Positions 2,358 to 21,832 of a DNA stretch of 64,000 nt are shown piece by piece. The notes below the pieces were generated by a model that made no database searches, was not told the origin of the DNA, and worked only from the letters and a program-made list of their open reading frames with translations. The stretch spans positions 1 through 64,000 of the forward strand of contig JAFGIP010000114.1 of assembly GCA_016929525.1 (NCBI GenBank), written 5' to 3'. A program made the translations under genes and the position numbers. Within the stretch, counting starts at the first letter, position 1. Every line of letters starts with the position of its first letter. Origin of the DNA: Bacteroidales bacterium. GTDB lineage: Bacteria; Bacteroidota; Bacteroidia; Bacteroidales; UBA10428.

Positions 2358-2697
2358 AGAAAGCAGATATTGCTGTCAGGTAAATTTGTTTTTTTTAATA
2401 TCAATCTAAATTGTTTTAAAACGAGTTCTGACTTCCACTGATAAGCTGACAACTTTAAAAATTTGTTTTGGTTCATTAATTTTTTAAATTGCACAGGGAA
2501 AGGCATTTTTAAAAAGTTATGTGAAAGAAAGATATTAAGAATGACTTTGCTGCCAGCCTGTTATGCGAGATTGAAAAAAGTCATTTTATAGGTATTCATA
2601 TTTAAATGACGTTGTAATGATTAGGTCTCCGCCCTAAGTGTTATGTTATTATATTTCAGTTAAATTAATTTATAAAAAGTTAATATACCTTATAAAC
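2358..2697. other. Intergenic region without a recognised gene
   Basis: The 340 bases between the Nudix gene and the GH16-like gene are AT-rich. Short reading frames occur on both strands (for example 2303-2506 minus), but they overlap Nudix coding sequence or lack any protein-like pattern. I see no clear terminator, tRNA or promoter with both elements. The promoter for the following secreted-protein pair should lie here. Confidence 0.4.
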
Positions 2698-3777
2698 ATG
2701 AAAAAGCTAATTTTTATAATTAGCCTTGGTGTATTTGTAATTGCACTTAAGGTTCAAATTCCAGCTGGAAGTGATGCAAATTGGAGGTTAAATACATATT
2801 TAAGTAATGAGTTTAATGATGCAGGCGTGGATCCAAATTTATGGTATATTCCTGAAGGACGAGGCTGGGGGAGAGGACATCCATCTTGTCCAAGTTATGG
2901 TACATATACTAGTCGCGATCAGGTAACTTTCGATGGAAATAACATTACTTTCACAGCTGAACAAATTAATAGTGACCCAATTATTCAAATATTATATGAT
3001 ATGGTTACCGGTTTTATCATTTCAAATAATGATGAATACCTTTATGGATTCTATGAAATAAGAACGATATTGCCAGGATACTACGAGGGAGGGAACCCTT
3101 ATGGATATGGTTTCCAGCCAGAGTTCTGGTTATATTTCCAACCGCGTGATGCGAATAATTGCATTATTAATTATGATGAAATAGATATAGTTGAACCAAG
3201 CGGGAATCAATTTGCTCAAGCTAATCAAAACTGTGTAGGAATCCATGATTACATTGGAGGTTGTGATGACACACAAAAGTATGGACATCATTGCTTTACA
3301 AGCAGTACGCCTTTCTTTGAAGATTATCACACTTTTGGAGCAGAATTATTTCCTGATAGAGTAATTTTCTATTTTGATGATAATCCAATTTCATATTTAG
3401 AAGAATCTGACATTGAACATATTCCCGATTCTCCTATGAGATTAGTCATTGGGTTTCAAGTTGACTGGAGAATTAACAATGGGATATTACCTTCAAGTAC
3501 ATTATTACCTCAGACGATGATAGTTGATTATTTTCGATATTATGAACTCAATTTTGACAATTGTAATCTAGATGTTACAATATTAACTAACAGCCAGCTA
3601 AATAATTTTGAATTTGGTGTTAGAAAAAATATCAATATTGGAAACGGATCAAGTTCAATCTCACTTGATCAAGGTGATAATGTAACATTTCGGGCTACAG
3701 AATCTACTTTTATAGAGGGTGACTTTACTGTGCCACTTGGTTCCGAATTTAATGTTATTCCAACAATTTGTAATTAA
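2698..3777 (+). CDS. Secreted glycoside hydrolase family 16-like protein
   Basis: A 359-residue exported protein. The signal peptide MKKLIFIISLGVFVIALK sets the start at 2698; an upstream Met at 2638 would place 20 unlikely residues before it. The body fits the GH16 jelly roll: NEFNDAGVDPNLW near 37-49, YGFYEIRTILP near 116-126, FQPEFWLYF near 139-147, and the catalytic signature EIDIVE at 161-166 (E-x-D-x-x-E; nucleophile E161, acid/base E166). GH16 enzymes cut beta-1,3/1,4-glucans, agar or carrageenan; which one cannot be told. The last 70 residues (VTFRATESTFIEGDF..GSEF) resemble the beta-rich repeat found near the C-terminus of many Bacteroidota secreted proteins. A T9SS cargo gene follows after 21 bases, probably in the same transcript. 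Confidence 0.8.
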   Translation: MKKLIFIISLGVFVIALKVQIPAGSDANWRLNTYLSNEFNDAGVDPNLWYIPEGRGWGRGHPSCPSYGTYTSRDQVTFDGNNITFTAEQINSDPIIQILYDMVTGFIISNNDEYLYGFYEIRTILPGYYEGGNPYGYGFQPEFWLYFQPRDANNCIINYDEIDIVEPSGNQFAQANQNCVGIHDYIGGCDDTQKYGHHCFTSSTPFFEDYHTFGAELFPDRVIFYFDDNPISYLEESDIEHIPDSPMRLVIGFQVDWRINNGILPSSTLLPQTMIVDYFRYYELNFDNCNLDVTILTNSQLNNFEFGVRKNINIGNGSSSISLDQGDNVTFRATESTFIEGDFTVPLGSEFNVIPTICN

Positions 3778-3798: not shown

Positions 3799-4965
3799 AT
3801 GAAAACAATAAGAATTATAATAGTCTCCCTAATTTTTGCTGTTGATGTATTTAACCTTTCAGCACAAATAAGGGTAGCAAATAATGGTAATGTATCAATA
3901 GGACACACAAATACACATCCTTCAGCAAATTTATATGTTCGAAAAAACGGTCTTACAGAAGCATGGATTTACTCATACACACAATCTGAACCCGCGCGTC
4001 TCTGGACTATAACACAACAGTACGCATATGGAATAGGTGCAGAAGGGTTAACAGGTTATATTTATCGAAATTTAAATAATCCTGTTAAAATTATGTCTTT
4101 TAATACTGAAGGTAGAATTGGTATAAACACAACTAGTCCAAATTCCAGACTCCATACAAATAGTGCTTCAGGAGAGGACGGCTTAAGGGTGCAAATATCA
4201 GGAGCAAGCAAACTAACTGTCGCCTCAAATGGTGGTGTTACAATTGGATGTTATAGGGATAACCCACCTGTGAATGGTCTTTGGGTATATGGGCAAATTT
4301 ATACACAAAACGGGACCTTAGTGATTTCGGATAGCCGATATAAAAGTGATATTAAAAGCTTAAATAATTCTTTAGAAAGAGTACTGAAATTAGAAGCCGT
4401 AAGTTATAGTTTGAAAAATAATCTTTATGTTGATAAACCTGATTCATTTAATTTAGGTTCTATTAGTGATGAGAATTATTGTAGTGTTCCAAGTCAAAAA
4501 AGAAAAATTGGATTTGTAGCTCAAGCGGTTGAAAATATTGTACCAGAAGTGGTGGAAACATTAGATGATGGTACAAAAGCAATTGCTTATTCCAATATGG
4601 TAGCCCTTTTAGTCGAAGCTATAAAGGAACAACAAGTACAATTGGAAATGATGAATCAGGAATTATCAACACTTAGGCTACAATTAAATGAGTTTACACA
4701 GAATGATTTAAATGATTTTGGTAATTACCCAAACCCCGTTGTTAATGAAACGCAAATTAGTTTAACTGTTCCGACAGAAACAATTGCAGCTAAATTAATT
4801 ATAATTAACTCAAATGGGAAACTGGTAAAAGAAATACAAATTGTTGACAGGGGTAATTCAGTTATTAAATTTGATGCAAATGACCTTATTTCCGGCACTT
4901 ACACTTACTCTCTAGTTGCCGATGGAGAAATTCTGGAAACCAAAAAAATGATTGTGACTAGGTAA
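3799..4965 (+). CDS. T9SS cargo protein with S74 intramolecular chaperone domain
   Basis: The 388-residue product has a signal peptide (1-23, ending SAQ), a beta-rich region resembling trimeric tail-fibre stalks (NGNVSIG, GRIGINTTSPNSRLH), an S74 endosialidase-type chaperone domain (about 176-285) and a type IX secretion sorting domain (about 308-388, starting NYPNPVVNETQI, ending KKMIVTR). In S74 proteins a Ser-Lys dyad cuts the chaperone from the mature trimer; SDSRYKSDIK at 178-187 supplies candidate S178 and K182, and GFVAQAVENIVPE and NMVALLVEAIKE are typical of the family. A helical segment (EQQVQLEMMNQELSTLRLQLNEF) follows. An unusual point is that the sorting signal lies after the self-removed domain, so cleavage would separate the cargo from its anchor unless it is slow or absent. 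Confidence 0.85.
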   Translation: MKTIRIIIVSLIFAVDVFNLSAQIRVANNGNVSIGHTNTHPSANLYVRKNGLTEAWIYSYTQSEPARLWTITQQYAYGIGAEGLTGYIYRNLNNPVKIMSFNTEGRIGINTTSPNSRLHTNSASGEDGLRVQISGASKLTVASNGGVTIGCYRDNPPVNGLWVYGQIYTQNGTLVISDSRYKSDIKSLNNSLERVLKLEAVSYSLKNNLYVDKPDSFNLGSISDENYCSVPSQKRKIGFVAQAVENIVPEVVETLDDGTKAIAYSNMVALLVEAIKEQQVQLEMMNQELSTLRLQLNEFTQNDLNDFGNYPNPVVNETQISLTVPTETIAAKLIIINSNGKLVKEIQIVDRGNSVIKFDANDLISGTYTYSLVADGEILETKKMIVTR

Positions 4966-6599: not shown

Positions 6600-8087
6600 T
6601 TATTTAGTTATATAATGCATGGAAATATCCTGTATTTCTTTACATGGCTTTTCTTCTTTAGGCATATCTTTATACTTACCATACCTGGGGCAGCATATAT
6701 AAATTCCCTTTTTTGCCAGATCTGAATCCATCTGACACAGAAGTTCCTTGTATTCTGGTCCCACTTTCTTTTTCCACATCATATACCAGAATGCTTCTTT
6801 GGTCATATCAGACCAGTGTAATATGGTTTTTGCATATTGCCAATTGTAAAACTGGCCCTGTAACAGGGTTCCTGCAACCAGTAAGGAAAGGACAATGCGC
6901 ACTATACCTGATTTCTGATACCAAAGCCATGTCAGAAAAGCGGTCATTGGGAATGCGAGTATACCATATATATCAGCAAAAGTCCGTATGCTGAAACCTC
7001 CGCCATACCACCAGCTCCACCAGGAAAAAAGTATATAAATAAAAACACAAAGGAAAATGACAGAAGCATAAAAAAACTTTGAATTATATCTTTTCAACCA
7101 TATTAAACCTAAAAATGCAAACACTAAAACAGGGTTATACAAAAAAACACCTTTCCTGTAACCAAATAAGCCTTCAATAATATGCGGATGCCTGAAGAAA
7201 AAACTTCCTCCTGCAGAGCCATATGCATAGTATAAATAATGTCCGGTTGTATATTTCCAGTATAAAAACTGAGGTATCCAAATCAGGAAGACAATGGATA
7301 TAACAGTGATAATTTTTGGTGAATGTTGCAGAAATAATCTTGCTTTGTCGATAATGCCTCTAAAACTTGTTATTCCATAGAGTATAAACACAAGAACAAC
7401 GAGAATATTAAATGGCCTCACCAATGTAATTAAACCTGTAATAATGCCAATCATTACCGAGTTTTTCCATCCCGGATTTTTATGCCAGTTATCGGTATAT
7501 AATATAAATATACTTATCAGTGCAAAGTTATAGGCATGGGTCATGCAGGGTTCCTGAGTATAATAGGTGAATAAATTTGTACCCAGCGTTATTAAAATTA
7601 AAGTTATTCCAACAGGTATCTCTTCAAAGTATCTTAATAATACTTTTCGCAAAGCAAAAAGCCCCAGTATCAAGTAAATAAAACTACTTAATGCAAGAAA
7701 ATATTTGTAAGGTACTGTATAGCCGCTGGGATCATATCCTAATAGATGAGCAGCAGCATGTCCCATAAGAAAAAATGGAGATAACATCACTGCCTGTCCG
7801 ATTGTGTACCTTATCATTCTTTTTCCGGTTGGTGACGGATCCGACCAGATTTTCACTCTATGTTTGTTTTCATCCAACAACCTGAATTTCAGAGAAATAT
7901 CTTTGTATATAAACACAGCGGGAAGATACCCGTAATAACCAGTTACATCTGATTGAATAATAGCATTTTTACCAGTCCATCGATGACTGGAAAAAATATC
8001 AATACCACTATATATAAATACCAGTGCTATTGCAAAAACAGAGAAATTGCGAATAAGATACTTAAGGGACGAGATTAATACTTTCAT
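6600..8087 (-). CDS. Polytopic GT-C-like membrane protein
   Basis: A 495-residue protein with about 11 membrane segments and a short soluble tail. I do not recognise a named family with certainty. The first loop holds IQSDVTGYYGYLPAVF, an acidic residue followed by a Tyr-rich stretch, in the place where GT-C glycosyltransferases have their catalytic Asp. Tail residues include two Cys close together (ICCPRYGKY). It is followed on the same strand by no other gene and preceded by another GT39-like gene 19 bases upstream (8107-9693), so the two are probably cotranscribed. A role in adding a sugar from a polyprenyl carrier is inferred from topology and context only. Confidence 0.65.
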   Translation of the reverse strand: MKVLISSLKYLIRNFSVFAIALVFIYSGIDIFSSHRWTGKNAIIQSDVTGYYGYLPAVFIYKDISLKFRLLDENKHRVKIWSDPSPTGKRMIRYTIGQAVMLSPFFLMGHAAAHLLGYDPSGYTVPYKYFLALSSFIYLILGLFALRKVLLRYFEEIPVGITLILITLGTNLFTYYTQEPCMTHAYNFALISIFILYTDNWHKNPGWKNSVMIGIITGLITLVRPFNILVVLVFILYGITSFRGIIDKARLFLQHSPKIITVISIVFLIWIPQFLYWKYTTGHYLYYAYGSAGGSFFFRHPHIIEGLFGYRKGVFLYNPVLVFAFLGLIWLKRYNSKFFYASVIFLCVFIYILFSWWSWWYGGGFSIRTFADIYGILAFPMTAFLTWLWYQKSGIVRIVLSLLVAGTLLQGQFYNWQYAKTILHWSDMTKEAFWYMMWKKKVGPEYKELLCQMDSDLAKKGIYICCPRYGKYKDMPKEEKPCKEIQDISMHYITK

Positions 8088-8106: not shown

Positions 8107-9693
8107 TCAATTTTCACTACTGCTTTTTATCTGTTTATAGATTTCAATATTACCAAATTCCCCGATCTTATCCCCCAACAGGCTATCCGGATTTTCAACA
8201 TGCTGTAAGTGCGATCTGTCGCCTAATACAACATACTGCATTCCTTTTTCTTTAAATAATTCAAGCCAGTCTTTGAATTCAACTTTTTCCATAAAAAAGT
8301 CGGTAAAACCTTTCTGGTCCATTAAATAGAGGGTGATATTGATACTGCCGTCGGGTGTGCTGTAAACTTTATCGGTCCTTTTAATTCCCAGGCTTCTAAG
8401 GTACGGCGTAATTTTACCATAGCTGTTTACCCTTTGATTTGAAGAAAAAAACTGTCTGTCATCATTGCTGTAACGATAGTTCATTTCCTTCACACAGTGA
8501 AAGATCAGAAATACGAGGATTAAAACAAGTACTGATTTTGAAACCGCAGAATGATAGACCTTTGGTAAATGATCTTTTATCATTAGAAGGAAACTCAGAA
8601 AAATGACAGGAATAATAATCAGGTTACCTGTCTGATAATAATCATGCTGATACATAGAACGGAAAAAGAATACAGTAAAACCGGCAGCTCCAACGAAAAG
8701 CAGAATTGAAATGAGTGTAAATGTTCTTTTATAGAATTTGAACAGGACGATGTTACCGATAAACAATATGAATGATAAGTACAGGAACCACGTTGCACGG
8801 TATGCGCCGCCTTTAAACCATCGGTGAATAATCCTGTGCCAGATCTCAACAACCGAATCAACGGATAAAGCCCATACAGGTCTGATCTCAACTTCTGAAA
8901 CACTGCCTCCGTGATCTGCAGAGTATATTTTAGCAAAAGCATACCAACCAACAAGAACAACGATAACACCTAAGTATGATAGGATTACCTTCCAATTTAA
9001 ATCAATGGATTTTTCTTTATTTTTCTTAAAAAGAAGTTCAACGACAACTATTCCGCCAAGAGCGAAATAAAACAGCAACGATGGCGTTTTAATGAGTCCT
9101 GCCAGTAAAAAAAATAACATAGCGATATACCAGTTCTTTACTATTCGATCGTTATAATACTTAAAAAAGAAATAAACGCCTATAAATGATACCGACAGGG
9201 AAGTAGGATCCGGAATAAAATTATTGGTATAAAATGCATAAATGGTAGAAGTAAAAACTACCAAAGGCAGGACCAGAGCATAAATTCTGTCTTTTAGAAG
9301 GAGCAATCCTGTTTTAAAAAGATAGAATAATCCCAGATAACTTATCAGGATATTAACAAGTCGGAATAAAAATTCCTGGGGTCCAAAAATGCGGTAAAGT
9401 ATAGAAACAAAGTAATAAACAATAGGGAATTCTACCAGGGTAACATCTGAAGTACGGTCATCGGCAAGCAGTCCGTTTGTTTTACACTCAAGGAAATTTG
9501 CATTATGGTAGTAATTCAGAGCAAAAGCTGCGCAAATACAGTTGCGCCATTGGTGGATACTATCGGGTCGGTAAAATAGTATTTTATTGTAACTATATGA
9601 GAAGAAACATATAAGATAAACAACAAGGAACAGTTTATTGGCAGAAATTCTGAAGTTTTTTATTTTAAGGGACAGGGAATTCAATAATGGCAT
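8107..9693 (-). CDS. GT39-like membrane glycosyltransferase
   Basis: A 528-residue protein with about 11-12 membrane segments and a soluble C-terminal domain (about 420-528). The first periplasmic loop contains YRPDSIHQWRNCICAAFAL, where D44 is placed like the catalytic Asp of GT-C enzymes, followed by EFPIVYYFVSILYRIFG, which resembles the second conserved region of PMT-like proteins. It probably uses a polyprenyl-phosphate sugar; acceptor unknown. First gene of a two-gene minus-strand unit with 6600-8087. The start at 9693 is the first Met before a basic N-terminus; the GT2 gene 383 bases away diverges from it, with a dispersed repeat in between. Confidence 0.8.
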   Translation of the reverse strand: MPLLNSLSLKIKNFRISANKLFLVVYLICFFSYSYNKILFYRPDSIHQWRNCICAAFALNYYHNANFLECKTNGLLADDRTSDVTLVEFPIVYYFVSILYRIFGPQEFLFRLVNILISYLGLFYLFKTGLLLLKDRIYALVLPLVVFTSTIYAFYTNNFIPDPTSLSVSFIGVYFFFKYYNDRIVKNWYIAMLFFLLAGLIKTPSLLFYFALGGIVVVELLFKKNKEKSIDLNWKVILSYLGVIVVLVGWYAFAKIYSADHGGSVSEVEIRPVWALSVDSVVEIWHRIIHRWFKGGAYRATWFLYLSFILFIGNIVLFKFYKRTFTLISILLFVGAAGFTVFFFRSMYQHDYYQTGNLIIIPVIFLSFLLMIKDHLPKVYHSAVSKSVLVLILVFLIFHCVKEMNYRYSNDDRQFFSSNQRVNSYGKITPYLRSLGIKRTDKVYSTPDGSINITLYLMDQKGFTDFFMEKVEFKDWLELFKEKGMQYVVLGDRSHLQHVENPDSLLGDKIGEFGNIEIYKQIKSSSEN

Positions 9694-10076
9694 TTGTTAA
9701 TTATTTAGGCTTCAGACAAAAATAGGTTGCACAACTCATTTCTCAAACAAGGCAGTGACTTTTCTTTGAGAAGAATTATTTTTTATTTGCTATTTGCTAT
9801 AGCTGATGGCAAACATTAGCTAACAACAACAATAAATCAAAGAGATTTTCACACCTCGCAAATAATTATGTATTTTCGTTGCTTAAATTTATTATATAGC
9901 ATATTAATAACATTCCGGTCGAAACGTAGTGGAGAACCGGAATCCATTAACTTTATCTTATTTGGAAATATGGATTCCTGATCCCTGTCTGCATACCTTC
10001 GGTATGTAAACCGGCAGGCAGGTTCGTTTCACTACGTCAGGAATAGCAGATGTTTTTCAGTGAATAAATATTAATA
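9694..10076. other. Divergent intergenic region holding a dispersed repeat
   Basis: The 383 bases between the minus-strand GT39-like gene and the plus-strand GT2 gene contain no protein-like frame. The right half (9912-10048) is a composite repeat listed separately. Promoters for both neighbours must be in the remaining AT-rich DNA, but I cannot place them. Confidence 0.5.
9912..10048. repeat. Dispersed repeat with inner palindrome
   Basis: ATTCCGG...CCGGAATCC forms a first stem and GGATTCCTGA...TCAGGAAT a second. The same arrangement, with different loop sequence, recurs at 61460-61555. Inside the second loop sits a palindromic module (9986-10022: CATACC-TTC-GGTATG flanked by GCAGGCAGG) that also occurs alone, inverted, at 13641-13678. 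This is a nested, non-coding repeat family of miniature-transposon or REP type; no transposase is in the window. Confidence 0.75.
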
Positions 10077-11045
10077 ATGAAATTAATAATCCAAATACCA
10101 TGTTACAATGAGGGGAAAACCCTGGCCATCGCTTTATCCCATCTTCCCCGGGAAGTAGAAGGTTTTGATAAAGTAGAATGGCTTATAATTAACGATGGCA
10201 GCACCGATAATACTGTCGGGGAGGCAAAAAAGAACGGGGTGGACCACGTAGTAAGTTTTAAAGAGAACCAGGGTCTGGCCAAAGGTTTTATGGCTGGTCT
10301 GAGTGCCTGTGTCCGTTTGGGTGCCGATGTTATTGTCAATACAGATGCGGACAACCAGTATAATGCAGAAGATATCCCAAAACTCACGGCTCCTATTGTG
10401 CAGGGAAAGGCTGATATGGTTGTTGGTGCAAGACCTATTCTCGATATTGAGCATTTCTCAAAAAGAAAAAAAATGCTTCAGAAACTTGGATCGTGGACAG
10501 TTAAGTTAGCCAGTAAAACAGATATTCCCGATGCCCCCAGTGGCTTTCGTGCCTTTAGTCGCGAAGCCGCAATGAAATTAAATGTGTTCAATGAATACAC
10601 ATATACCCTCGAAACAATAATCCAGGCTGGCAGAACAGGAATTGCCATTACATCAGTCCCGGTGCGTACAAACGAAGATCTCAGACCATCGCGACTGGTA
10701 AAAAGTATTTTCAATTATGTAAAGTTATCGTTATACACCATTCTTCGGATATTCACCATTTATAAACCTTTCAGGACTTTCTTTACGATCGGGGCATTTT
10801 TCTTTCTGATAGGATTCGGGCTTGGTATCAGGTGGTTATATCTTTTTTTCATAGCCGGTACCGAAAGAACCCATGTTCCCAGTTTGATACTGGCCAGCAT
10901 TTGTATTATTCTGGGAGTTCTTGTTGGTGTTATTGCAATTATTGGCGACCTACTGGCTGTTAACAGGAAATTACTGGAGGATATTCAGTATCGTGTCAGA
11001 AAGCAGGAAGCAGAACTGGAAACCCTGAAGCATAATAATCAATGA
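10077..11045 (+). CDS. GT2 polyprenyl-phosphate glycosyltransferase (DPM-like)
   Basis: The 322-residue protein has a cytosolic GT-A domain (1-215) and two C-terminal membrane segments (about 235-255 and 268-292), the architecture of dolichyl-phosphate mannose/glucose synthase relatives. Visible motifs are IPCYNEGKTL at the N-terminus, NDGSTDN at 39-45, the metal-binding DAD at 90-92 (NTDADNQY), and VVGARP. It probably loads a sugar from a nucleotide donor onto undecaprenyl phosphate on the cytosolic face, giving the donor used by GT-C enzymes such as those at 5102 and 8107. Its last codons overlap the next gene by four bases (ATGA), which implies translational coupling to the FrhB-like protein. 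Confidence 0.88.
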   Translation: MKLIIQIPCYNEGKTLAIALSHLPREVEGFDKVEWLIINDGSTDNTVGEAKKNGVDHVVSFKENQGLAKGFMAGLSACVRLGADVIVNTDADNQYNAEDIPKLTAPIVQGKADMVVGARPILDIEHFSKRKKMLQKLGSWTVKLASKTDIPDAPSGFRAFSREAAMKLNVFNEYTYTLETIIQAGRTGIAITSVPVRTNEDLRPSRLVKSIFNYVKLSLYTILRIFTIYKPFRTFFTIGAFFFLIGFGLGIRWLYLFFIAGTERTHVPSLILASICIILGVLVGVIAIIGDLLAVNRKLLEDIQYRVRKQEAELETLKHNNQ

Positions 11046-12385
11046 AGTTTGAAACACTTAGAAAGAAGGTAATAAAACCCGGGTTATGTACGCATTGTGG
11101 AACCTGTGTCGGATTATCAAACGGGGTATTGCATTTTAATGAAACTTCAAAAGGACCTTTACCTGATGGAGACCTTTCATGTGATATTCCCGATGAAGCC
11201 TTTGATGCCTGTCCGGGTAAAGGATTACATTATGGCAACCTGAATAAAATTATTTTTAACACTTTGCCTGATAACTGGCTTATTGGTAACTATAAGAATC
11301 TGTATGTCGGTTACTCGGGGAATGATGATATTCGTCTGAAAGGAGCATCAGGGGGAGTTATAACCCAGATACTGATTTATCTGATGAAAACAAAACAGAT
11401 AGATGGGGCCGTAGTATTAAAGCATGGAATTCCAAAACCATGGCTGGCAGAACCGATAATTGCCACTTCCGAAAAGGAGATCATAGAGGCGAGTCAAAGT
11501 GTGTACGCACCCATTCCTGTGAATACCATCTTAGAGGAAGTAAAATCATTCACTGGTAAGGTAGCATTTGTAGGACTTCCCGATCAGGTTGCTTCAATAC
11601 GTTATCTTCAGTCTGTTCAGCATCCATCGGTTAAGAACATTGAATATGTGCTGGGTCCTTATGTCGGAATTAATATGTATGCCGGTTCGGTGTTACGCTT
11701 TGCCCGGTCAAATGGCATTAAAAACCCTGACTCAATAAAAGAAGTCAAATATCGTGATGGTGAATGGCCCGGATATTTAAGAATTACCACGCATGATAAT
11801 AAAACAGTAAAAGCGGAGAAATTTTATTACAACTATCTCCTTCCTTTTTATATAACCAGGAGTACACTTTATTCAATCGATTTCACCAATGATCTGACCG
11901 ATATTTCTGTCGGTGATGCCTGGAATCCGGTCTATGAGAAGGAGGGGAAAGGCTTTGCCGTGGTGATTGCCAGGAATGAAAAAGCTGCGAAATTACTGCA
12001 GCAAATGAAGAAGGAAAAGGCACTGATACTTGAAGAAAAACTTTTGAATGATATACTGAACATGCATGGACACATGCTTGATTTTAAGAAAAGGGGGGCA
12101 TTTGTAAGGATGTCATTCAGAAAAGCTCTTGGAAGAAGGATACCCGATTACGGTATATGGCCAAAGAAATTGGGACTATCGAGATACCTGGTAGAAGTTG
12201 TAATATTTGGAGTGATTGTTTTATGTTCAAATCGCTTTGCGAGGTTTATGCTGGGAATAATTCCCATTTCAGTGATTGGGAGATTTTTTAATTTTTCCAG
12301 AAAATCGTGGAAAAACATGTCAAAACCTACTAAGCGGAAAGGATTGTCGAACCAGGAATACATAATAAAAAGCACCACTCTGTGA
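11042..12385 (+). CDS. FrhB-like iron-sulfur protein (coenzyme F420 hydrogenase beta-subunit family)
   Basis: A 447-residue protein. Cys16, Cys19 and Cys22 (GLCTHCGTC) with a fourth Cys-Pro at 57 (DACPGKG) form a ferredoxin-like [4Fe-4S] site. The body has family patterns such as KGASGGVITQILIYLM near 99-115, FVGLPDQVASIRYLQ near 174-188, and DISVGDAWNP near 285-294. The family includes the FAD-binding beta subunit of F420-reducing hydrogenase and many homologues in polysaccharide clusters of organisms without F420, whose reaction is unknown. The C-terminus adds a hydrophobic helix or two (VVIFGVIVLCSNRFARFMLGI) and a basic tail, suggesting membrane attachment. It overlaps the GT2 gene by four bases. 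A reduction of a sugar or polyprenyl intermediate is an inference from context. Confidence 0.8.
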   Translation: MKFETLRKKVIKPGLCTHCGTCVGLSNGVLHFNETSKGPLPDGDLSCDIPDEAFDACPGKGLHYGNLNKIIFNTLPDNWLIGNYKNLYVGYSGNDDIRLKGASGGVITQILIYLMKTKQIDGAVVLKHGIPKPWLAEPIIATSEKEIIEASQSVYAPIPVNTILEEVKSFTGKVAFVGLPDQVASIRYLQSVQHPSVKNIEYVLGPYVGINMYAGSVLRFARSNGIKNPDSIKEVKYRDGEWPGYLRITTHDNKTVKAEKFYYNYLLPFYITRSTLYSIDFTNDLTDISVGDAWNPVYEKEGKGFAVVIARNEKAAKLLQQMKKEKALILEEKLLNDILNMHGHMLDFKKRGAFVRMSFRKALGRRIPDYGIWPKKLGLSRYLVEVVIFGVIVLCSNRFARFMLGIIPISVIGRFFNFSRKSWKNMSKPTKRKGLSNQEYIIKSTTL

Positions 12386-12640
12386 CCTCAGTGTCTCCTC
12401 CGTGTTCTTTGTAGTAAAATAATAAACCACAGAAGCACACAAAGTAAGCACAGAATACAAAGAGTATACGCCAAAAAATAAAATATAATAATATTATTCA
12501 AAGTTCATGCAAGTAAAAATTATTTTTAGTGGTCCTGATGCATATCGGGATTTGTGCTATAGCCACTTGGTGGCATTATTCGCCACTAATACACAAAATC
12601 ACAAAACATCACAAATTAAATCATCAGCAAATCATATAAA
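12386..12640. repeat. Cluster of degenerate palindromic and CACAGAG/ACAAAG repeats
   Basis: The gap holds CTCAGTGTCTCCTCCGTG and CCACAGAAGCACACAAAG (complementary-type blocks), an imperfect palindrome TCCTGATGCATATCGGGA (about 12533-12550), a small hairpin GCCAC-TTG-GTGGC (12557-12569), and CACTAATACACAAAATCAC. Related CACAGAG/ACAAAG blocks occur near 607-655, 1045-1075, 13580-13620 and 15335-15370. No gene is visible. Confidence 0.5.
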
Positions 12641-13567
12641 TTGAAAATCAACCGAAATATAAAATTTCTAGCATCAGTATTGGTTAGTGTACTGATTTTA
12701 TTGCTTATATACCGGAAAGTAGATTTTGGGCAGCTTAAGGATATTCTGACATCAGTTAGCGCATTGCATTTCAGCATATACATCCTTCTTTTTATTCCAC
12801 AGATTGCATTAGCGGCGTTTCGGTGGCGTTATATTCTCTCACGAATAAGTAATTATCCTGTAAGTTATTTGAAGTCTTTTCAGATGGTAGTTGGGAGTTA
12901 CAGTGCCAATCTTATCATTCCTGCAAAAATGGGAGAGGTTGTACGTGTCTTCTGGGTCGATAAGAGTAAGTCGAAATACAAGCCGTTTGCACTGGTAATA
13001 TTTGAAAAAATGTGGGATATTCTGGTTGTATACCTGATATTTTATATCGCATTTATTTTTGTTCAGTTTCATTCAGAAAAGTTCAGGGAAGCATTTTATA
13101 TATTTTCTGCAATAAATGCCGGTGCAGTGATGGCTATTATTCTTTTTGCACTGCTAAAGAAAAAGATACCACTGGCAGGTAATAATAAAATGTCTGAGAT
13201 ACTTAATTCAATAAGGGAATTCTGGCACGAAAGCAAGAGCGATTTTCCGGTAGTATTTATCTGGTCGATCGTTCTTTGGATTGTCCAGGTATCACAGTTC
13301 TATTTTATGTTCAGGGCATTTAATGTGATACTTCCGGTCGATCTGGTGTTTTCCGGCAGTGCATTATCAGTGTTGGCCGGTGCTGTTATTATATCGATCG
13401 GGGGGGTTGGACCACGCGATGCAACCATTATCTGGTTTTTTGCAAGTCTTGTTTCTAAAGAGATTTTAGTCTCGGTTGGAATTATATCAGTATTAAGAAT
13501 TGTAGTGCCGGCAATAGTCGGCTTACCGTTTTTTATTAAATTGTCCGTTCAAAAACAACAAAAATAA
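12641..13567 (+). CDS. UPF0104/LPG-synthase-type membrane protein, possible flippase
   Basis: A 308-residue protein with about 8 membrane segments, of the family that includes AglD and the flippase half of MprF (lysylphosphatidylglycerol synthase TM region). Typical features are the early FRWRYILSR stretch, GSYSANLIIPAKMGEVVRV near 85-103, and a Gly-rich late segment (GGVGPRDATIIWFF). The only sensible start is TTG at 12641, followed by AAAATCAACCG; the next Met is around residue 83 and would remove two segments. Members move or modify lipid-linked molecules. Placed between lipid-linked sugar genes, translocation of a glycolipid or polyprenyl intermediate is a reasonable inference. Confidence 0.82.
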   Translation: MKINRNIKFLASVLVSVLILLLIYRKVDFGQLKDILTSVSALHFSIYILLFIPQIALAAFRWRYILSRISNYPVSYLKSFQMVVGSYSANLIIPAKMGEVVRVFWVDKSKSKYKPFALVIFEKMWDILVVYLIFYIAFIFVQFHSEKFREAFYIFSAINAGAVMAIILFALLKKKIPLAGNNKMSEILNSIREFWHESKSDFPVVFIWSIVLWIVQVSQFYFMFRAFNVILPVDLVFSGSALSVLAGAVIISIGGVGPRDATIIWFFASLVSKEILVSVGIISVLRIVVPAIVGLPFFIKLSVQKQQK

Positions 13568-13640
13568 AAAAGATGATTTCTTCGTAAAACTCTGTGCCTT
13601 CTTTGTGAGTTTGTGGTATATTTTAAATTAAACCACTGAC

Positions 13641-13678
13641 TTGCCTGCCGGTTTACATACCGAAGGTATGCAGGCAGG
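13641..13678. repeat. Palindromic repeat module
   Basis: GCCTGC, a 7-base bulge CGGTTTA, then CATACC-GAA-GGTATG and GCAGGC: a stem with a bulge. It is the reverse complement of 9986-10022 with few differences. It lies in the short gap between the UPF0104 gene and the next gene and is flanked by CTCTGTG/TTTGTGAG fragments. Confidence 0.75.
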
Positions 13679-13725
13679 GTTTCACAGAGTGATAAAGAGA
13701 AAAGCAGAGTATATGTATATATAAT

Positions 13726-15249
13726 ATGAAACAACTCCTTTGGAACCAGATACAGAACCATGCCCAGCGATTATTGTCGCAGGCAGATCGTGACCCGGAT
13801 TCTCCTTCTTATGGCAGCTTCGACAGGAATTACTGGAATTATAAGATACGCGATTTTTCTTCTGTCATTCTGCAGCAGGGTATTTTATCGCTGGATGTTC
13901 TGTATTCATTTAATTCACCTGATAATATTTACTTTCAAAAACCAGTCATTAAAGATCTGATTAAGGCCGGCATCGGGTTCTGGTCAAAAAGCCAGTTGCG
14001 TTCCGGGGCTTTTAATGAATACTACCCCAATGAATCGGGTTTCCCTCCCACTGCGTTTAGTTTATATGCTATTGGTCTGATGTTGGAAAAGTATCCTGAA
14101 TTTATTGATAAAAATGTTATAATATCTATTAACAAAGCCATTCGATGGCTTTTAAAACATCCCGAAAAAGAAGCTCTGAATCAGGAAAGTGTTGCACTTT
14201 CTGGTATAATAATTTCAAAAAATATATCAGGAGTAAAAGTGAATGAAACTTTACTAAACAAAAGACTTGACCAATTTTACAATTCGCAGTATCCCGAAGG
14301 TTGGTTCAATGAATATGGTGGCCCGGATCTGGGCTATCTCTCGGTCACTATTGATAGTTTGTGGGATATTTATAGAATAACTGAAGACGCTCGGGCACTG
14401 AAAGCAATTGAAAAAGCAACGGAGTTTATCAGTTATTTTATTTCTGTTTCTTATGAACCCCCTGTAATGATCAATGCACGCAACACCGACTACCTGGTAC
14501 CATTCGGGTTATCGGGTTTCGGATCGATGAATCCTGTGGCAGCTGAATTATCAAGAGTCATCTTACAGAATATCAGCAGGCCCGGGAACATGTTCAGTAA
14601 AACAGACGACCGGTATCTGAGTCATTATATCGGGCAATCATATTTCAGATCATTGCTGAATATTGAAAAATTAAAGAGTGAACAGGTAGTATTACCATAT
14701 AAAAAAGATACGATAAAGTATTTTGACGGGTGTGATATTTTTGTAAAACATATAGCGGAACAGAAAAGTACTTTTATATCACTTCGAAAGGGGGGGATTT
14801 ACAGTGAATATGATGTTAACGGGATTAAATCGGCTGATTATGGCTGGCGCTATAAAACAGGAAAAAGTATTGCTGTTACCCACTGGCAAAATGCCGACTA
14901 TCGATGTTCTCACCAAATAAACGGAGGCAAAATTGAGCTTGTGGTGGAAGGTAATTTCACATTACACAGGTACATCAAACCTTCACCTCTGAAACATGTT
15001 GTTTTAAGGGTTTTATCTTTTATAGCAGGCAACAGGATTATGCCGTTCCTGAAATCATTGATTATTTTTAGTCAAAAGAACAGCAAGATCGGTTTTATGC
15101 GTAAGCTAAATATCAGTAATAACACGATTGAAGCAGTTGATTCATTCAGGAATCTTCCCGGCGAAAATATTCTTTATAAAGCACCGCATTATTCAATGAG
15201 GCATGTATCAAGTGCAGGGAGGTTTGTTGAGGAAGAGCTTTTAAAGTGA
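13726..15249 (+). CDS. Unrecognised protein, probable alpha/alpha toroid with C-terminal beta domain
   Basis: I cannot name this 507-residue protein. There is no signal peptide and no clear membrane segment, apart from one moderately hydrophobic stretch near 425-450 (HVVLRVLSFIAGNRIMPFL). The first 310 residues are a series of helix pairs with aromatic and Gly-Gly turns (WSKSQLRSGAFNEYYPNESG, WFNEYGGPDLGYLSVTIDSLWDIY, NTDYLVPFGLSGFGSMNP), a pattern of (alpha/alpha)n-toroid enzymes such as heparinase II/III-like lyases, GH88/GH105 hydrolases or C5-epimerases. The remaining part (FDGCDIFVKHIAEQKSTFISLRKGG, DYGWRYKTGKSIAVTHW) is beta-rich, as in the sandwich of heparinase-like proteins. Asp and Tyr in PDLGYLS could be catalytic. 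Its neighbours suggest action on a glycan or its lipid carrier. Start ATG at 13726. Confidence 0.6.
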   Translation: MKQLLWNQIQNHAQRLLSQADRDPDSPSYGSFDRNYWNYKIRDFSSVILQQGILSLDVLYSFNSPDNIYFQKPVIKDLIKAGIGFWSKSQLRSGAFNEYYPNESGFPPTAFSLYAIGLMLEKYPEFIDKNVIISINKAIRWLLKHPEKEALNQESVALSGIIISKNISGVKVNETLLNKRLDQFYNSQYPEGWFNEYGGPDLGYLSVTIDSLWDIYRITEDARALKAIEKATEFISYFISVSYEPPVMINARNTDYLVPFGLSGFGSMNPVAAELSRVILQNISRPGNMFSKTDDRYLSHYIGQSYFRSLLNIEKLKSEQVVLPYKKDTIKYFDGCDIFVKHIAEQKSTFISLRKGGIYSEYDVNGIKSADYGWRYKTGKSIAVTHWQNADYRCSHQINGGKIELVVEGNFTLHRYIKPSPLKHVVLRVLSFIAGNRIMPFLKSLIIFSQKNSKIGFMRKLNISNNTIEAVDSFRNLPGENILYKAPHYSMRHVSSAGRFVEEELLK

Positions 15250-15388
15250 GAATTTGATTATTTATTGATTTTAATATAGTAATATATTAGGATTAGTGTT
15301 TTTTATCATTTCATAAAGTATAAATATTTACAGTCACGAAAGCACCAAAACACGAATTAACACAAAAGATAAATTAACACATTATCAC

Positions 15389-16162
15389 GTGAGTTTTTTA
15401 AAATACAATTTCCCTGAAAATCTTGACTCTCCGGAGAGGACGTTAAAGCACAAAGAAATTATACGTAGCAAGGGTTTTTTAAGAAAGCTATATATCGACT
15501 GGTATAAAATATTTCAGAATGAGTTAAAGGAACTGCCACCGGGGAAAGTAATCGAGCTTGGTTCGGGAGGTGGGTTTTTAAAGGAAATTGAACCTTCTGT
15601 TATTGCAACAGATATATTACCATTGCCAACAAACGATCTTACATTCTCAGCTCTCGATATGCCTTTTGGTGATTCAGAACTCAGCGGGATTGTGATGCTT
15701 GACACTTTTCACCATATACCCGATACCGAAGGTTTTTTGAAAGAAGCATACAGAGTGTTAAAGATTAATGGTAAAATTGTAATGATCGAACCGGCGAACA
15801 GCTGGTGGGGAAGATTCATTTACATAAAATTGCATCATGAACCTTTTGATCCGGAAGGTGACTGGCAAATTCCTGCTCAGGGTCCAATGAGTGGTGCAAA
15901 TGGTGCTTTACCATGGATAGTTTTTGAAAGAGATACTAATAAATTCCACAAACTTTTCCCCGATTTTAAAATTGAAGAAATTAAATACCATACTCCATTT
16001 AGTTATTTGCTTAGCGGAGGTGTATCATATAAGTCTTTTCTGCCTGCATTTCTTTACAGGTTGGTCAGGATAATTGATTGGGTTTCATCGTTGGTCACCA
16101 GGCAACTTTCAATGTTTGTAACAATAATGATTTATAAAACAGCCAAAAGTGAGTTTAAATAG
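15389..16162 (+). CDS. Class I SAM-dependent methyltransferase
   Basis: A 257-residue Rossmann-fold methyltransferase. Motif I is VIELGSGGGFLKEI (55-68), the acidic end of strand 2 is ATDILPLP (73-80), motif post-II is DMPFGDSELSGIVMLDTFHHI (90-110), and motif III-like IVMIEPANSWWG follows. A Trp- and Pro-rich insertion (HHEPFDPEGDWQIPAQGPMSG) is present. The start is GTG at 15389, since no ATG precedes motif I at a suitable distance. A methyl acceptor within a glycan or lipid is suggested by the neighbours but not shown. It is convergent with the fusion protein at 16164, with one base between the stop codons. Confidence 0.82.
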   Translation: MSFLKYNFPENLDSPERTLKHKEIIRSKGFLRKLYIDWYKIFQNELKELPPGKVIELGSGGGFLKEIEPSVIATDILPLPTNDLTFSALDMPFGDSELSGIVMLDTFHHIPDTEGFLKEAYRVLKINGKIVMIEPANSWWGRFIYIKLHHEPFDPEGDWQIPAQGPMSGANGALPWIVFERDTNKFHKLFPDFKIEEIKYHTPFSYLLSGGVSYKSFLPAFLYRLVRIIDWVSSLVTRQLSMFVTIMIYKTAKSEFK

Positions 16163-16163
16163 A

Positions 16164-17573
16164 TCAGGATATAAATTTTATCTTTCTTGCTGCATAAAGT
16201 GACATCTTAACAAGCAGCCATCCATGTCTGAATCTTTTAATCTGGGTTGACCCGTATTCCCGGTCCCTGTAACGAACAATGACCTCCATAATTTTCAGGT
16301 TTAATTTTGCAGCACCAAATAGCAGGTCGAAATCGGCAAACGGATCGAAATCGCCAAAATACTTCCTGTTCTTTTTGATCAGTTCATAGTCTTTTTTAAA
16401 CAATACTTTTGTACCGCAAAGCGTATCTTTCAGACGCTGACCCAAAAGATATGAAAAGAACCAGCTAAAAAATTTGTTGCCCAGGTAGTTCAGATACCGC
16501 ATGGCCTGTTTTTCCATAGGATATACCAATCTGGAGCCATTGATGAATTCCCCGTGATTATCAGCGAGAGCATTGTAAAACTTCACCATATCTTCAGGGG
16601 GAGTAGTCAGATCGGCATCCAGAATCATTAATACTTCGCCGCCGGCAGCATCGAATGCTTCCCTTACCGCATTTCCTTTTCCTTTACCGGTTTGTTTCAT
16701 CACCTTAATGTCATGATCGGTGTATTTTTGCTGCACACGTATCATTTCATCGTAGGTATTATCATTTGAATTTCCCTCAACGAAAATGAATTCCTGATGT
16801 TTTCCGAATTCCGGTGTTCTTAAAATTGCGTTTTCTATATTTCCTGCTTCATTTCGTGCAGGCACTACGATTGATACAGAATATTCAATTCTGCTCTTCA
16901 CACAAGGTCTTGCCGTTATAATCTGGATCAGGTTTAACCTGTTGATCCCGGGCAGGTTAGCAATTAAACTATTGAAAATAAGATTAAGCAGAGGAATATA
17001 TTTTGGAAACAGAAGTTTCCGTTCAACTCTGATAAGCTCAAAATTCTCAAGTGTTAAAAGATTCCCGATATCTTTAATACTTAGCCAGTTTTGTAATGGT
17101 TGTCTGGCTTTTAATCTTAAAAACTCGGTAAAACGTAAAAATGGTTCCCAGACATAGTTGTAGTTTGAGATAATGATCTTTGTGTTTGGGTTTGTTACTT
17201 TTTTAAGATTATGAAATACGGCCTGAATATCCCAGGTTGAGCTAAGAAAGTCGGAAAGTATAATATAATCGAAAGTTTCTTCAAATGTGAAATCTGTTGC
17301 ATCAGCGCATATAAAAGTCAGATGAGGATATTTTTCTTTGGCGATTTCTATCATGCTACCGGCAAAATCAATCCCTACTCCCATAGATGACTTAACACTG
17401 TTCAGCAGATCACCGGTTCCACAACCAACCTCAAGAACTTTTGAATTTTCGGGTATAATGAATGAGAAGTGTTTTTCCAGTATTCTGTGATAGAAACGAT
17501 TTCTTCTTTTCCATTTGTCCCTTTTCCCGGCAAGATTATCGAAATATAGTTTTATCGCATTTTTATCAGACAT
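16164..17573 (-). CDS. Methyltransferase-GT2 glycosyltransferase fusion
   Basis: The 469-residue chain joins two enzymes. Residues 1-225 are a class I SAM methyltransferase: motif I is VLEVGCGTGDLL at 46-57, then GVGIDFAGSMIEIA, and FDYIILSDFLSS at 101-112. Residues 232-469 are a GT2 domain: VSIVVPARNEAGNIENAI at 233-250, EGNSNDNT at 266-273, GKGKGNAVREAF, and the metal site DAD at 319-321, like bacterial dolichol-phosphate-type transferases but without C-terminal membrane segments. Reading is continuous, with no internal stop. A chain that both methylates and glycosylates suggests consecutive steps on one substrate, which is inference. It is on the opposite strand to 10077-16162, with the GT-C gene 17714-19483 upstream. 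Confidence 0.87.
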   Translation of the reverse strand: MSDKNAIKLYFDNLAGKRDKWKRRNRFYHRILEKHFSFIIPENSKVLEVGCGTGDLLNSVKSSMGVGIDFAGSMIEIAKEKYPHLTFICADATDFTFEETFDYIILSDFLSSTWDIQAVFHNLKKVTNPNTKIIISNYNYVWEPFLRFTEFLRLKARQPLQNWLSIKDIGNLLTLENFELIRVERKLLFPKYIPLLNLIFNSLIANLPGINRLNLIQIITARPCVKSRIEYSVSIVVPARNEAGNIENAILRTPEFGKHQEFIFVEGNSNDNTYDEMIRVQQKYTDHDIKVMKQTGKGKGNAVREAFDAAGGEVLMILDADLTTPPEDMVKFYNALADNHGEFINGSRLVYPMEKQAMRYLNYLGNKFFSWFFSYLLGQRLKDTLCGTKVLFKKDYELIKKNRKYFGDFDPFADFDLLFGAAKLNLKIMEVIVRYRDREYGSTQIKRFRHGWLLVKMSLYAARKIKFIS

Positions 17574-20696: not shown

Positions 20697-21832
20697 TTAT
20701 ATTTTAAGCCAGTTTAAAAAATTGTCCATATTGATAACTTCAAATGAAGTCCGGGGATATGCTTTTACCCACTACGAGGGCACCTTCACTCTATATTCTT
20801 TTATTTTGAATTCATAAATATAAAGTTTTCCGTCGCGTTCCTCCACCCAGTCAATTCCCTGTTGATCATAAGTTCTCCAAAAATAATTATTGGATGCGAT
20901 ATTTTTGTTTTCCTGGAATTTTATTCTTTCGGATATCAGGTAATTTTCCCAAAGTTGTCCGACATCATCTCTTGATTCGATTGGATTAAAGTTAGCGATT
21001 ACTGTATTCATTATTCCATTATCAAGGAAGTACCATCGAGCATTTTTAGTGATCTCTTTTCTGAGATTTTTACTGAATCCTTCAAATTTTAAAAGAATAA
21101 ATACTTTACATAACAGGTTTAAATATTTATCCACTGTGTTTTTACTTATGGCCAGCTGTTTACCAAGCTCCTGCAGTGATACTTCATTTCCTATCTGAAA
21201 GGTAATTAATCTGAGCAGATTGAATATTTTCTGAGAATTCTTTATATTCTCATACGCCAAAATATCTTTTAACAGGTATGAACTTACCATTTCATTCAAA
21301 TAATCCTTTTTATCTGCATTGTCAGGTATATGAATAAGTTCGGGGTAATTACCATAAACAAGTCTGTGTTTAACTCCGTCGATTTTAGAAATTCTGTCTT
21401 CTATTTGCTCGAATTCGGATTCTGAAAATGCATATAACTTAAAAGTATATTTACGGCCTGTCAGAGGTTCGCCTGTGTCTTTACTAATACCTAATGCCGA
21501 TGATCCTGAGATTATTACTTTCAGGCCATCGATTTCATCAACCATTAACATTAAGATATGACCGATTTCAGGTATTTTTTGTGCTTCATCTATGAACAGT
21601 AATCTAAACGTACCTAATAACTGTCGGTAATTTTCAGCTGAACTGTGTGATAATCTGTCATGAACATTAATGTCTTCTCCATTCAGGTAAAGATAAGGTT
21701 CATTCAAACGCTTCAGGATTTCCCTTATCATAACAGTTTTCCCGACTCTTCTTGCACAAAGACAATTATAACTTCATTGACCAGGAGTTTTTCAATTATT
21801 CTGTCTGAGATATCTCTTAAAAGGATTTTCAT
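20697..21832 (-). pseudogene. DUF4143-type AAA ATPase, broken by a frameshift and a nonsense codon
   Basis: Members of this family are P-loop ATPases with a C-terminal DUF4143 winged-helix/nuclease-like part; their role is uncertain and they are often mobile. The natural start is ATG at 21830-21832 (MKILLRDISDRIIEKLLVNE). After EVIIV the frame is lost by one base near 21764: the expected ..ARRVGKTVMIREIL continues in the next frame, so the Walker A lysine is out of frame with the start. The long frame then runs to TAG at 20772, after which the same frame still encodes WVKAYPRTSFEVINMDNF and NWLKI, the family's usual C-terminus, to TAA at 20697. Two independent lesions make a sequencing error unlikely as the only cause. 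Reads from the Met at 21731 could still give a 319-residue protein without a P-loop. Confidence 0.85.

Follow-up and report, generated by a model that had tools for sequence, protein, structure and literature searches.

The question raised by this locus is what a DPM-like family 2 glycosyltransferase (GT2) and an FrhB-like oxidoreductase, encoded by overlapping genes, do together in a glycan gene cluster. The locus lies in a stretch of 64,000 nucleotides from a Bacteroidales genome (GenBank assembly GCA_016929525.1, contig JAFGIP010000114.1, positions 1 to 64,000), which is called the window below. A sequence-only reading of the window had placed the pair at the center of a module of six genes that would build, move and trim a lipid-linked glycan. 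The conserved unit is smaller. It consists of four genes, which encode the DPM-like GT2 (gene 10077, named by its first position), the FrhB-like protein (11042), a UPF0104 membrane protein (12641) and a predicted toroid protein, here called TOR (13726), and their association is far beyond chance. The products of these four genes probably attach a sugar to a membrane lipid, remodel it on that lipid and flip it out for surface decoration.

Occurrence and two forms of the module

Co-occurrence was assessed in 393 genomes of the window's order, in which TOR sequences fall into a close class (E of 1e-80 or better) and a distant class (about 1e-44). TOR was detected in 14 of these genomes (10 close, 4 distant); 28 have FrhB of this clade, and 14 have the GT2 subfamily that is named DPMA here. 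FrhB is present in nine of the ten genomes with a close TOR, versus 28/393 overall (Fisher p 1e-10), and the DPMA GT2 in eight of the same ten, versus 14/393 overall (Fisher p 1e-11). In all nine genomes that have both a close TOR and FrhB, the two genes adjoin or are one gene off. Two genomes of the window's genus lack TOR, one carrying the methyltransferase form of the module (vide infra; G712, locus L105) and the other the GT2 alone (G042, L093), which indicates that the module is accessory.

The gene neighborhoods of FrhB were compared at 38 loci, comprising the 28 FrhB-containing genomes of the order, one distant FrhB (L033) and nine loci of a cross-phylum set; phyla beyond the window's own were sampled through this last set alone, and two of its loci are Bacteroidales. 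A DPM-type GT2 is found on the same strand within three genes of FrhB at 33 loci, and UPF0104 or GtrA on the same strand within four genes at 34, the loci without either in range being L017, L023, L033 and L103. When 34 stretches were clustered all against all, no family was present in more than six of them besides FrhB, UPF0104, TOR, the GT2s, the methyltransferases and a membrane protein of the type encoded at 6600. The surroundings of the core differ from locus to locus, with greA and HIT genes at L029 (positions 6948-7815, immediately upstream of a module of the methyltransferase form) and uridine-kinase-type and prismane genes at L048. All four genes also stand together on a contig of a metagenome-assembled genome (MAG) from Pseudomonadota (L021). 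Besides Bacteroidota, the loci represent Chloroflexota, Pseudomonadota, Peregrinibacteriota and a nano-archaeon; as each locus outside Bacteroidota is a single MAG contig, misbinning is possible there. Among 395 genomes sampled across the phylum, TOR was matched in the window's own genome only, and a search of viral contigs detected no relative.

Two forms of the module can be distinguished. Form A contains the DPMA GT2, TOR, FrhB and UPF0104, and is found in the window, L013 (Bacteroidales), L021, L048-L051 and L052-L054. UPF0104 is exchanged for GtrA in L053 (PF04138, 4.4e-12) and in L052, whose GtrA is 59% identical to that of L053 over 113 residues. Form B contains a second GT2 subfamily (DPMB), a methyltransferase, FrhB and UPF0104, and 15 of the 19 form-B loci of the window's order show them in this sequence; the exceptions are L025 (GT2 not found), L099 (methyltransferase not found), L103 (UPF0104 missing) and L107 (contig end). 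In the Chloroflexota loci L014-L016, the parts of form B are arranged in a different order, and FrhB lies in looser surroundings in L018 (nano-archaeal), L019 (Peregrinibacteriota) and L020. TOR, found at 11 loci, alternates with the form-B methyltransferase, found at 21: the two never occur beside the same FrhB (0/38). The module is followed by a short-chain dehydrogenase/reductase (SDR) gene at five of the 38 loci and by an aldo-keto reductase (AKR) gene at four, each named by Pfam in one example.

The FrhB sequences of form A belong to separate lineages. In the FrhB tree, L048-L051 stand apart, and the window, L013 and L017 lie next to Chloroflexota form-B sequences. Trees in which the window, L013, L017 and L048-L051 form one clade, or in which all form-A sequences do, are rejected (p-AU 3.6e-6 and 2.7e-53, respectively), values that are indicative because the clade sets were chosen after inspection of the tree. 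The TOR sequences of the window, L013 and L048-L051 form one group in their tree, with a support of 84/91 that falls short of the star threshold; the GT2 tree is weakly resolved and does not conflict with this grouping. Between the window and L048-L051, identity is 64-67% for GT2, 44-49% for TOR and 38-40% for FrhB, and the position of the FrhB gene differs between the window set and L048-L051. Identity correlations among the three proteins were left unused, since they are confounded by shared ancestry. FrhB appears, on these comparisons, to have been recruited or replaced independently, more than once, beside one GT2-TOR core; this speaks for a functional need.

Of the six genes originally grouped, four thus recur together, but membership of the remaining two is not borne out by the locus and genome counts. 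The methyltransferase encoded at 15389 is not conserved: a single-sequence model found no relative at E 1e-8 in other loci, and only weak partial matches to other methyltransferases (45-107 residues, E about 1e-5). It is also distinct from the form-B methyltransferase. The methyltransferase-GT2 fusion encoded at 16164 was rejected as a member since it is widespread in the order, and it lies within four genes of FrhB at four of the 38 loci (the window, L013, L102 and L104). The 6600-type protein was likewise rejected as a module-specific gene, because it is common (38/109 order genomes); it is present in 13 of the 34 clustered stretches, and within three genes of FrhB on the same strand at 6/38 loci. 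The idea of a recurrent and unnamed module centered on the GT2-FrhB pair holds up, as the unit co-occurs across related genomes and no name for it was found in open-access literature searches. These searches returned nothing that joins FrhB or F420 hydrogenase with exopolysaccharide or pyruvyl transferase, or LPG synthase with flippase and undecaprenyl phosphate; as far as they reach, the module is undescribed.

Predicted functions of the four proteins

Both FrhB/FdhB Pfam domains are present in the FrhB-like protein, along with a single CxxCxxC...C motif and a C-terminal segment that is hydrophobic (hydropathy peak 377). The four motif cysteines (Cys16, Cys19, Cys22 and Cys57) are all kept in 37 of 38 FrhB homologues; the homologue in L020 (9995-11320) has lost two of them (E, C, A, C). 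A structure model (pTM 0.81, pLDDT 72.3) matches subunits of F420-reducing enzymes (Foldseek, 8riu_B, 1.1e-17) and plant HCAR (5dqr_B, 4.6e-13), which is an FrhB relative by sequence and by fold. The F420 ligase family PF01996 has no match in the window's own genome, which is 97.7% complete, while a control search detected it in 3 of 14 genomes; F420 dependence of the module was rejected as improbable on account of the missing match. The family was initially thought to have no defined role in organisms without F420. This statement fails, since BciB, another FrhB relative, is an 8-vinyl reductase that, according to PMC4836224, works with FAD, Fe-S clusters and electrons from reduced ferredoxin and not with F420, and HCAR is a further counterexample. 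FrhB relatives of known function are redox enzymes, some of them F420-independent.

Neither Pfam, NCBIfam and PHROGs nor the sequences of the PDB gave a match to TOR. Across the TOR members, a weak Pfam match to Pec_lyase appears in 7 of 15 (best 6.8e-4) and is not relied on. Structure prediction and profile searches had been suggested for this gene by the sequence-only reading, and the former gives a lyase/epimerase-type fold, whereas the TOR profile matches PDB sequences at chance level alone (best 0.24). The model is of moderate quality (pTM 0.72) and resembles PL33 enzymes (best 8r72_B, 1.4e-7), hyaluronate, xanthan and alginate lyases and an exo-heparinase in Foldseek. Both of its domains align with chondroitinase 9o3q (Z 17.8, rmsd 6.5, 389 residues), with GAGase VII 8khw (Z 17.5, rmsd 5.5, 395 residues) and with human dermatan sulfate epimerase 1 (DSE1) 6hzn (Z 17.0, rmsd 5.2, 393 residues). 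TOR is thus predicted from the model to combine a toroid with a beta-sandwich, in the fold of glycosaminoglycan lyases and C5-epimerases.

The published catalytic residues are N238, Y291 and H444 in the PL33 enzyme BtPL33HA, and H205, Y261 and Y473 in DSE1. In TOR, N152 and Y204 are kept in 17 of 17 aligned rows (16 different) at a spacing of 51-53, and this pair fits N238-Y291 and H205-Y261 by order and spacing only, without superposition. Residue 386 is His in 11 of 12 close TOR sequences, Asn in one and Gln in five distant rows, and the TOR alignment has no invariant Tyr in the beta domain. As there is no hydrophobic stretch near the N-terminus (one lies in the beta domain), TOR is probably cytosolic, as judged by a hydropathy scan only, which makes it doubtful that the module trims a glycan, as had been proposed. 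The TOR proteins of L056-L060 are 27-29% identical and lie beside a DPMB-type GT2, and a stand-alone TOR-GT2 pair may exist.

The solved relatives of the 10077 GT2 in a PDB sequence search are DPM synthase (5mlz, 1.7e-11) and ArnC. The C-terminal part of this GT2 contains two hydrophobic stretches (peaks of the hydropathy scan at residues 241 and 271), and the enzyme is predicted to be a polyprenyl-phosphate sugar synthase with a membrane anchor. The DPMA GT2s of L092-L097 form one well separated clade (100/100). The UPF0104 protein matches the NCBIfam "flippase-like" model TIGR00374 (58.7 bits, cut-off 43.2) and is the predicted flippase of the lipid-linked sugar. The best candidate for a GT-C partner is the PMT_2 gene that is divergent beside the GT2 gene: in addition to gene 8107 of the window, L013 has a gene 53% identical to it in the same divergent position, and L021 has a PMT_2 gene (2.8e-7) similarly placed.

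Proposed remodeling of a lipid-linked sugar and its alternatives

The family context of the GT2 and the flippase-type protein supports as probable the earlier suggestion that the module handles a lipid-linked sugar. The preferred reading is that the four-gene core is a three-component (GtrB/flippase/GT-C) glycosylation system that also contains enzymes for remodeling the lipid-bound donor; the probability of this reading is put at about 0.5. There is a precedent for such remodeling in the three-component pentofuranose systems, in which a polyprenyl-phosphoribose synthase, a flippase and GT136 are accompanied by a cytosolic epimerase expected to act on the lipid-borne sugar, with DprE1/E2 as its mycobacterial analogue (PMC11127046).

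The data themselves show which genes belong to the module and in what order, the alternation of TOR with the methyltransferase, the exchange of UPF0104 for GtrA, the separate lineages of FrhB and the predicted folds; for the chemistry of the module (substrate, product, redox direction and flipping) we infer the following steps. The GT2, judged by its family, would put a sugar on polyprenyl phosphate at the cytosolic face of the membrane. The FrhB-like FAD/[4Fe-4S] protein, which would be anchored to the membrane through its C-terminal segment, would then carry out a two-electron redox reaction on the lipid-linked sugar, the likely electron carrier being ferredoxin or something similar rather than F420. 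TOR would abstract a proton from the same lipid-linked intermediate, leading to epimerization or elimination; in form B, the methyltransferase takes the place of TOR, at some loci with an adjacent SDR or AKR gene. Finally, UPF0104, or GtrA in two loci, would flip the finished donor, and a GT-C enzyme would use it outside. A keto/enol intermediate would allow either TOR-type proton abstraction or methylation at the same carbon, and this would explain the alternation of TOR and methyltransferase. The specific version of the proposal, in which FrhB makes a keto/enol form of the polyprenyl-phosphate sugar that TOR epimerizes or eliminates, or that the methyltransferase methylates and an SDR or AKR sometimes reduces, would amount to modular on-lipid sugar editing; it is offered tentatively and is considered rather unlikely.

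Several observations weigh against the preferred reading. No GT2 is in range at five of the 38 FrhB loci (L018, L023, L025, L033 and L107, of which L023, L033 and L107 are at contig ends). The close TOR of L055 is not accompanied by FrhB, either within the stretch read or elsewhere in its genome, six genomes (L092-L097) have the DPMA GT2 but neither FrhB nor TOR, and the distant TORs of L056-L060 lie beside another GT2 with no FrhB within the stretch read. The GT-C partner is not constant, no single GT-C family being present at all loci. GT2 and UPF0104 genes are each frequent in glycan loci, and the counts come from 38 non-independent loci without a random-glycan-locus control. The TOR model is weak (pLDDT 63.6, built from 3 sequences), and toroid-only folds score equally or higher against it (7tem, Z 20.4; unsaturated glucuronyl hydrolase 2fv0, 18.9; cellobiose 2-epimerase 3wkf, 18.0), so that the two-domain match is what counts. 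As H386 is not kept in all TOR sequences, the full catalytic set is not secured.

The substrate may be something other than a single lipid-linked sugar. FrhB could act on a lipid-pyrophosphate oligosaccharide or on a nucleotide sugar, with the GT2 and UPF0104 merely belonging to the same glycan locus and TOR epimerizing or cleaving a uronate within the oligosaccharide, as DSE1 does on a polymer. The polymer substrates of PL33 enzymes and DSE1 are in line with this, as are the PMT_2, AlgX-like and MBOAT genes near some modules, which suggest larger loci, and one "coenzyme F420 hydrogenase" gene listed among Klebsiella capsule loci (PMC4616057). However, the core recurs compactly amid differing surroundings, as in L029 and L048, and the clustering described above detected no other family that accompanies it widely. 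This alternative is considered doubtful.

It is improbable that FrhB acts instead on the carrier, saturating an isoprene unit of the polyprenyl chain to give a dedicated dolichol-like carrier while TOR handles the sugar. The reduction of a vinyl C=C bond by BciB (PMC4836224) would be a chemical parallel, and FrhB does accompany both GT2 subfamilies while TOR and methyltransferase alternate. However, there is no obvious reason for a carrier reductase to be accompanied by a methyltransferase or TOR, the SDR and AKR neighbors suit sugar chemistry at least equally well, and searches of the open-access literature for FrhB together with polyprenyl phosphate or undecaprenyl came up empty. A housekeeping role, in which TOR is a lyase or hydrolase that clears stalled lipid-linked sugars and FrhB handles the unsaturated product, would agree with the lyase-like two-domain fold and probable cytosolic location of TOR, but it is very unlikely given form B, in which the same FrhB family lies beside a methyltransferase with no TOR (21/38 loci).

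Gene inventory, known systems and significance

The open reading frames of the window agree with the quoted coordinates of all six genes first grouped (Table 1), and the overlap of the GT2 and FrhB-like genes is indeed the four bases ATGA (11042-11045). GT-C enzymes had been placed at both ends of the run; of these, genes 5102 and 8107 carry PMT_2 matches above the cut-off, and genes 6600 and 17714 gave no Pfam or NCBIfam match. Promoter-like sites (32 versus 28.2 in shuffles) and terminator-like sites (3 versus 5.4 in shuffles) are at shuffle level in the window.

Table 1. Genes of the module and its immediate neighbors in the window
Feature	Coordinates	Strand	Evidence and remarks
PMT_2-type (GT-C) glycosyltransferase	8107..9693	-	PF13231 4.1e-11; divergent from module; candidate end-user of lipid-linked donor
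DPM/GtrB/ArnC-like GT2, subfamily DPMA	10077..11045	+	PF00535 2.5e-22; predicted polyprenyl-phosphate sugar synthase
FrhB-like flavin/[4Fe-4S] oxidoreductase	11042..12385	+	PF04422 7e-21, PF04432 2.9e-23
UPF0104/LPG_synthase_TM membrane protein, predicted flippase of lipid-linked sugar	12641..13567	+	PF03706 7.2e-38; TIGR00374
TOR, predicted (alpha/alpha) toroid + beta-sandwich, glycosaminoglycan lyase / C5-epimerase fold	13726..15249	+	Structure model
Class I methyltransferase, local passenger outside conserved module	15389..16162	+	PF08241 2e-8
Methyltransferase-GT2 fusion, common gene, loosely associated	16164..17573	-	20/109 order genomes

Some further features of the window lie around the module. 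An intergenic repeat of 129 bases (9920-10048) has whole or partial copies at eight places in the genome, itself included, one of which (13639-13679) sits between the UPF0104 and TOR genes. A GH16 glycoside hydrolase is encoded upstream of the glycan genes, at 2638-3777 (+). The protein encoded at 3799-4965 (+) combines two domains, a Peptidase_S74 self-chaperone domain and, after it, a Por_Secre_tail sorting domain. An AAA_14/DUF4143 ATPase is encoded at 20772-21731 (-); its AAA_14 match sets in at residue 2 with profile position 19, and the P-loop end is therefore possibly absent, through either a truncation of the gene or a misplaced start.

Among known systems, GtrABC and the phosphoribose/GT136 systems would share with the module a lipid-phosphate-sugar synthase, a flippase, a GT-C enzyme (for which the module has candidates) and a cytosolic enzyme expected to modify the lipid-borne sugar (PMC11127046). 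Their modifier is an SDR or DprE1/E2, whereas that of the module would be an FrhB-type Fe-S flavoprotein together with a lyase-fold protein or a methyltransferase. The decaprenyl-phosphate-ribose epimerase DprE1/DprE2 is a pair of redox enzymes acting on a lipid-phosphate sugar, to which the loci with FrhB and an SDR may be likened. DprE1, however, is a member of a flavin oxidase family that is unrelated and has no Fe-S domain. The 11042 protein shares both Pfam domains, the single [4Fe-4S] motif and the overall fold with BciB, HCAR, FrhB and Fsr, but differs in its hydrophobic C-terminal extension, its glycan gene context and a genome without an F420 ligase match. The TOR model has the two-domain fold of PL33/heparinase-type lyases and DSE1, and TOR has an Asn-Tyr pair that is comparable to theirs in order and spacing only. 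Unlike them, TOR has no sequence match to such PDB chains and no N-terminal hydrophobic stretch, and its beta domain has a hydrophobic stretch, a His that is not universal and no invariant Tyr.

If the preferred reading is correct, an Fe-S flavoenzyme would create surface-sugar diversity after the sugar already sits on its lipid, and the F420-independent branch of the FrhB family would gain a role. A fold known mainly from glycan breakdown would be placed in cytosolic biosynthesis, and the module would provide a genetic signature for finding unknown sugars.

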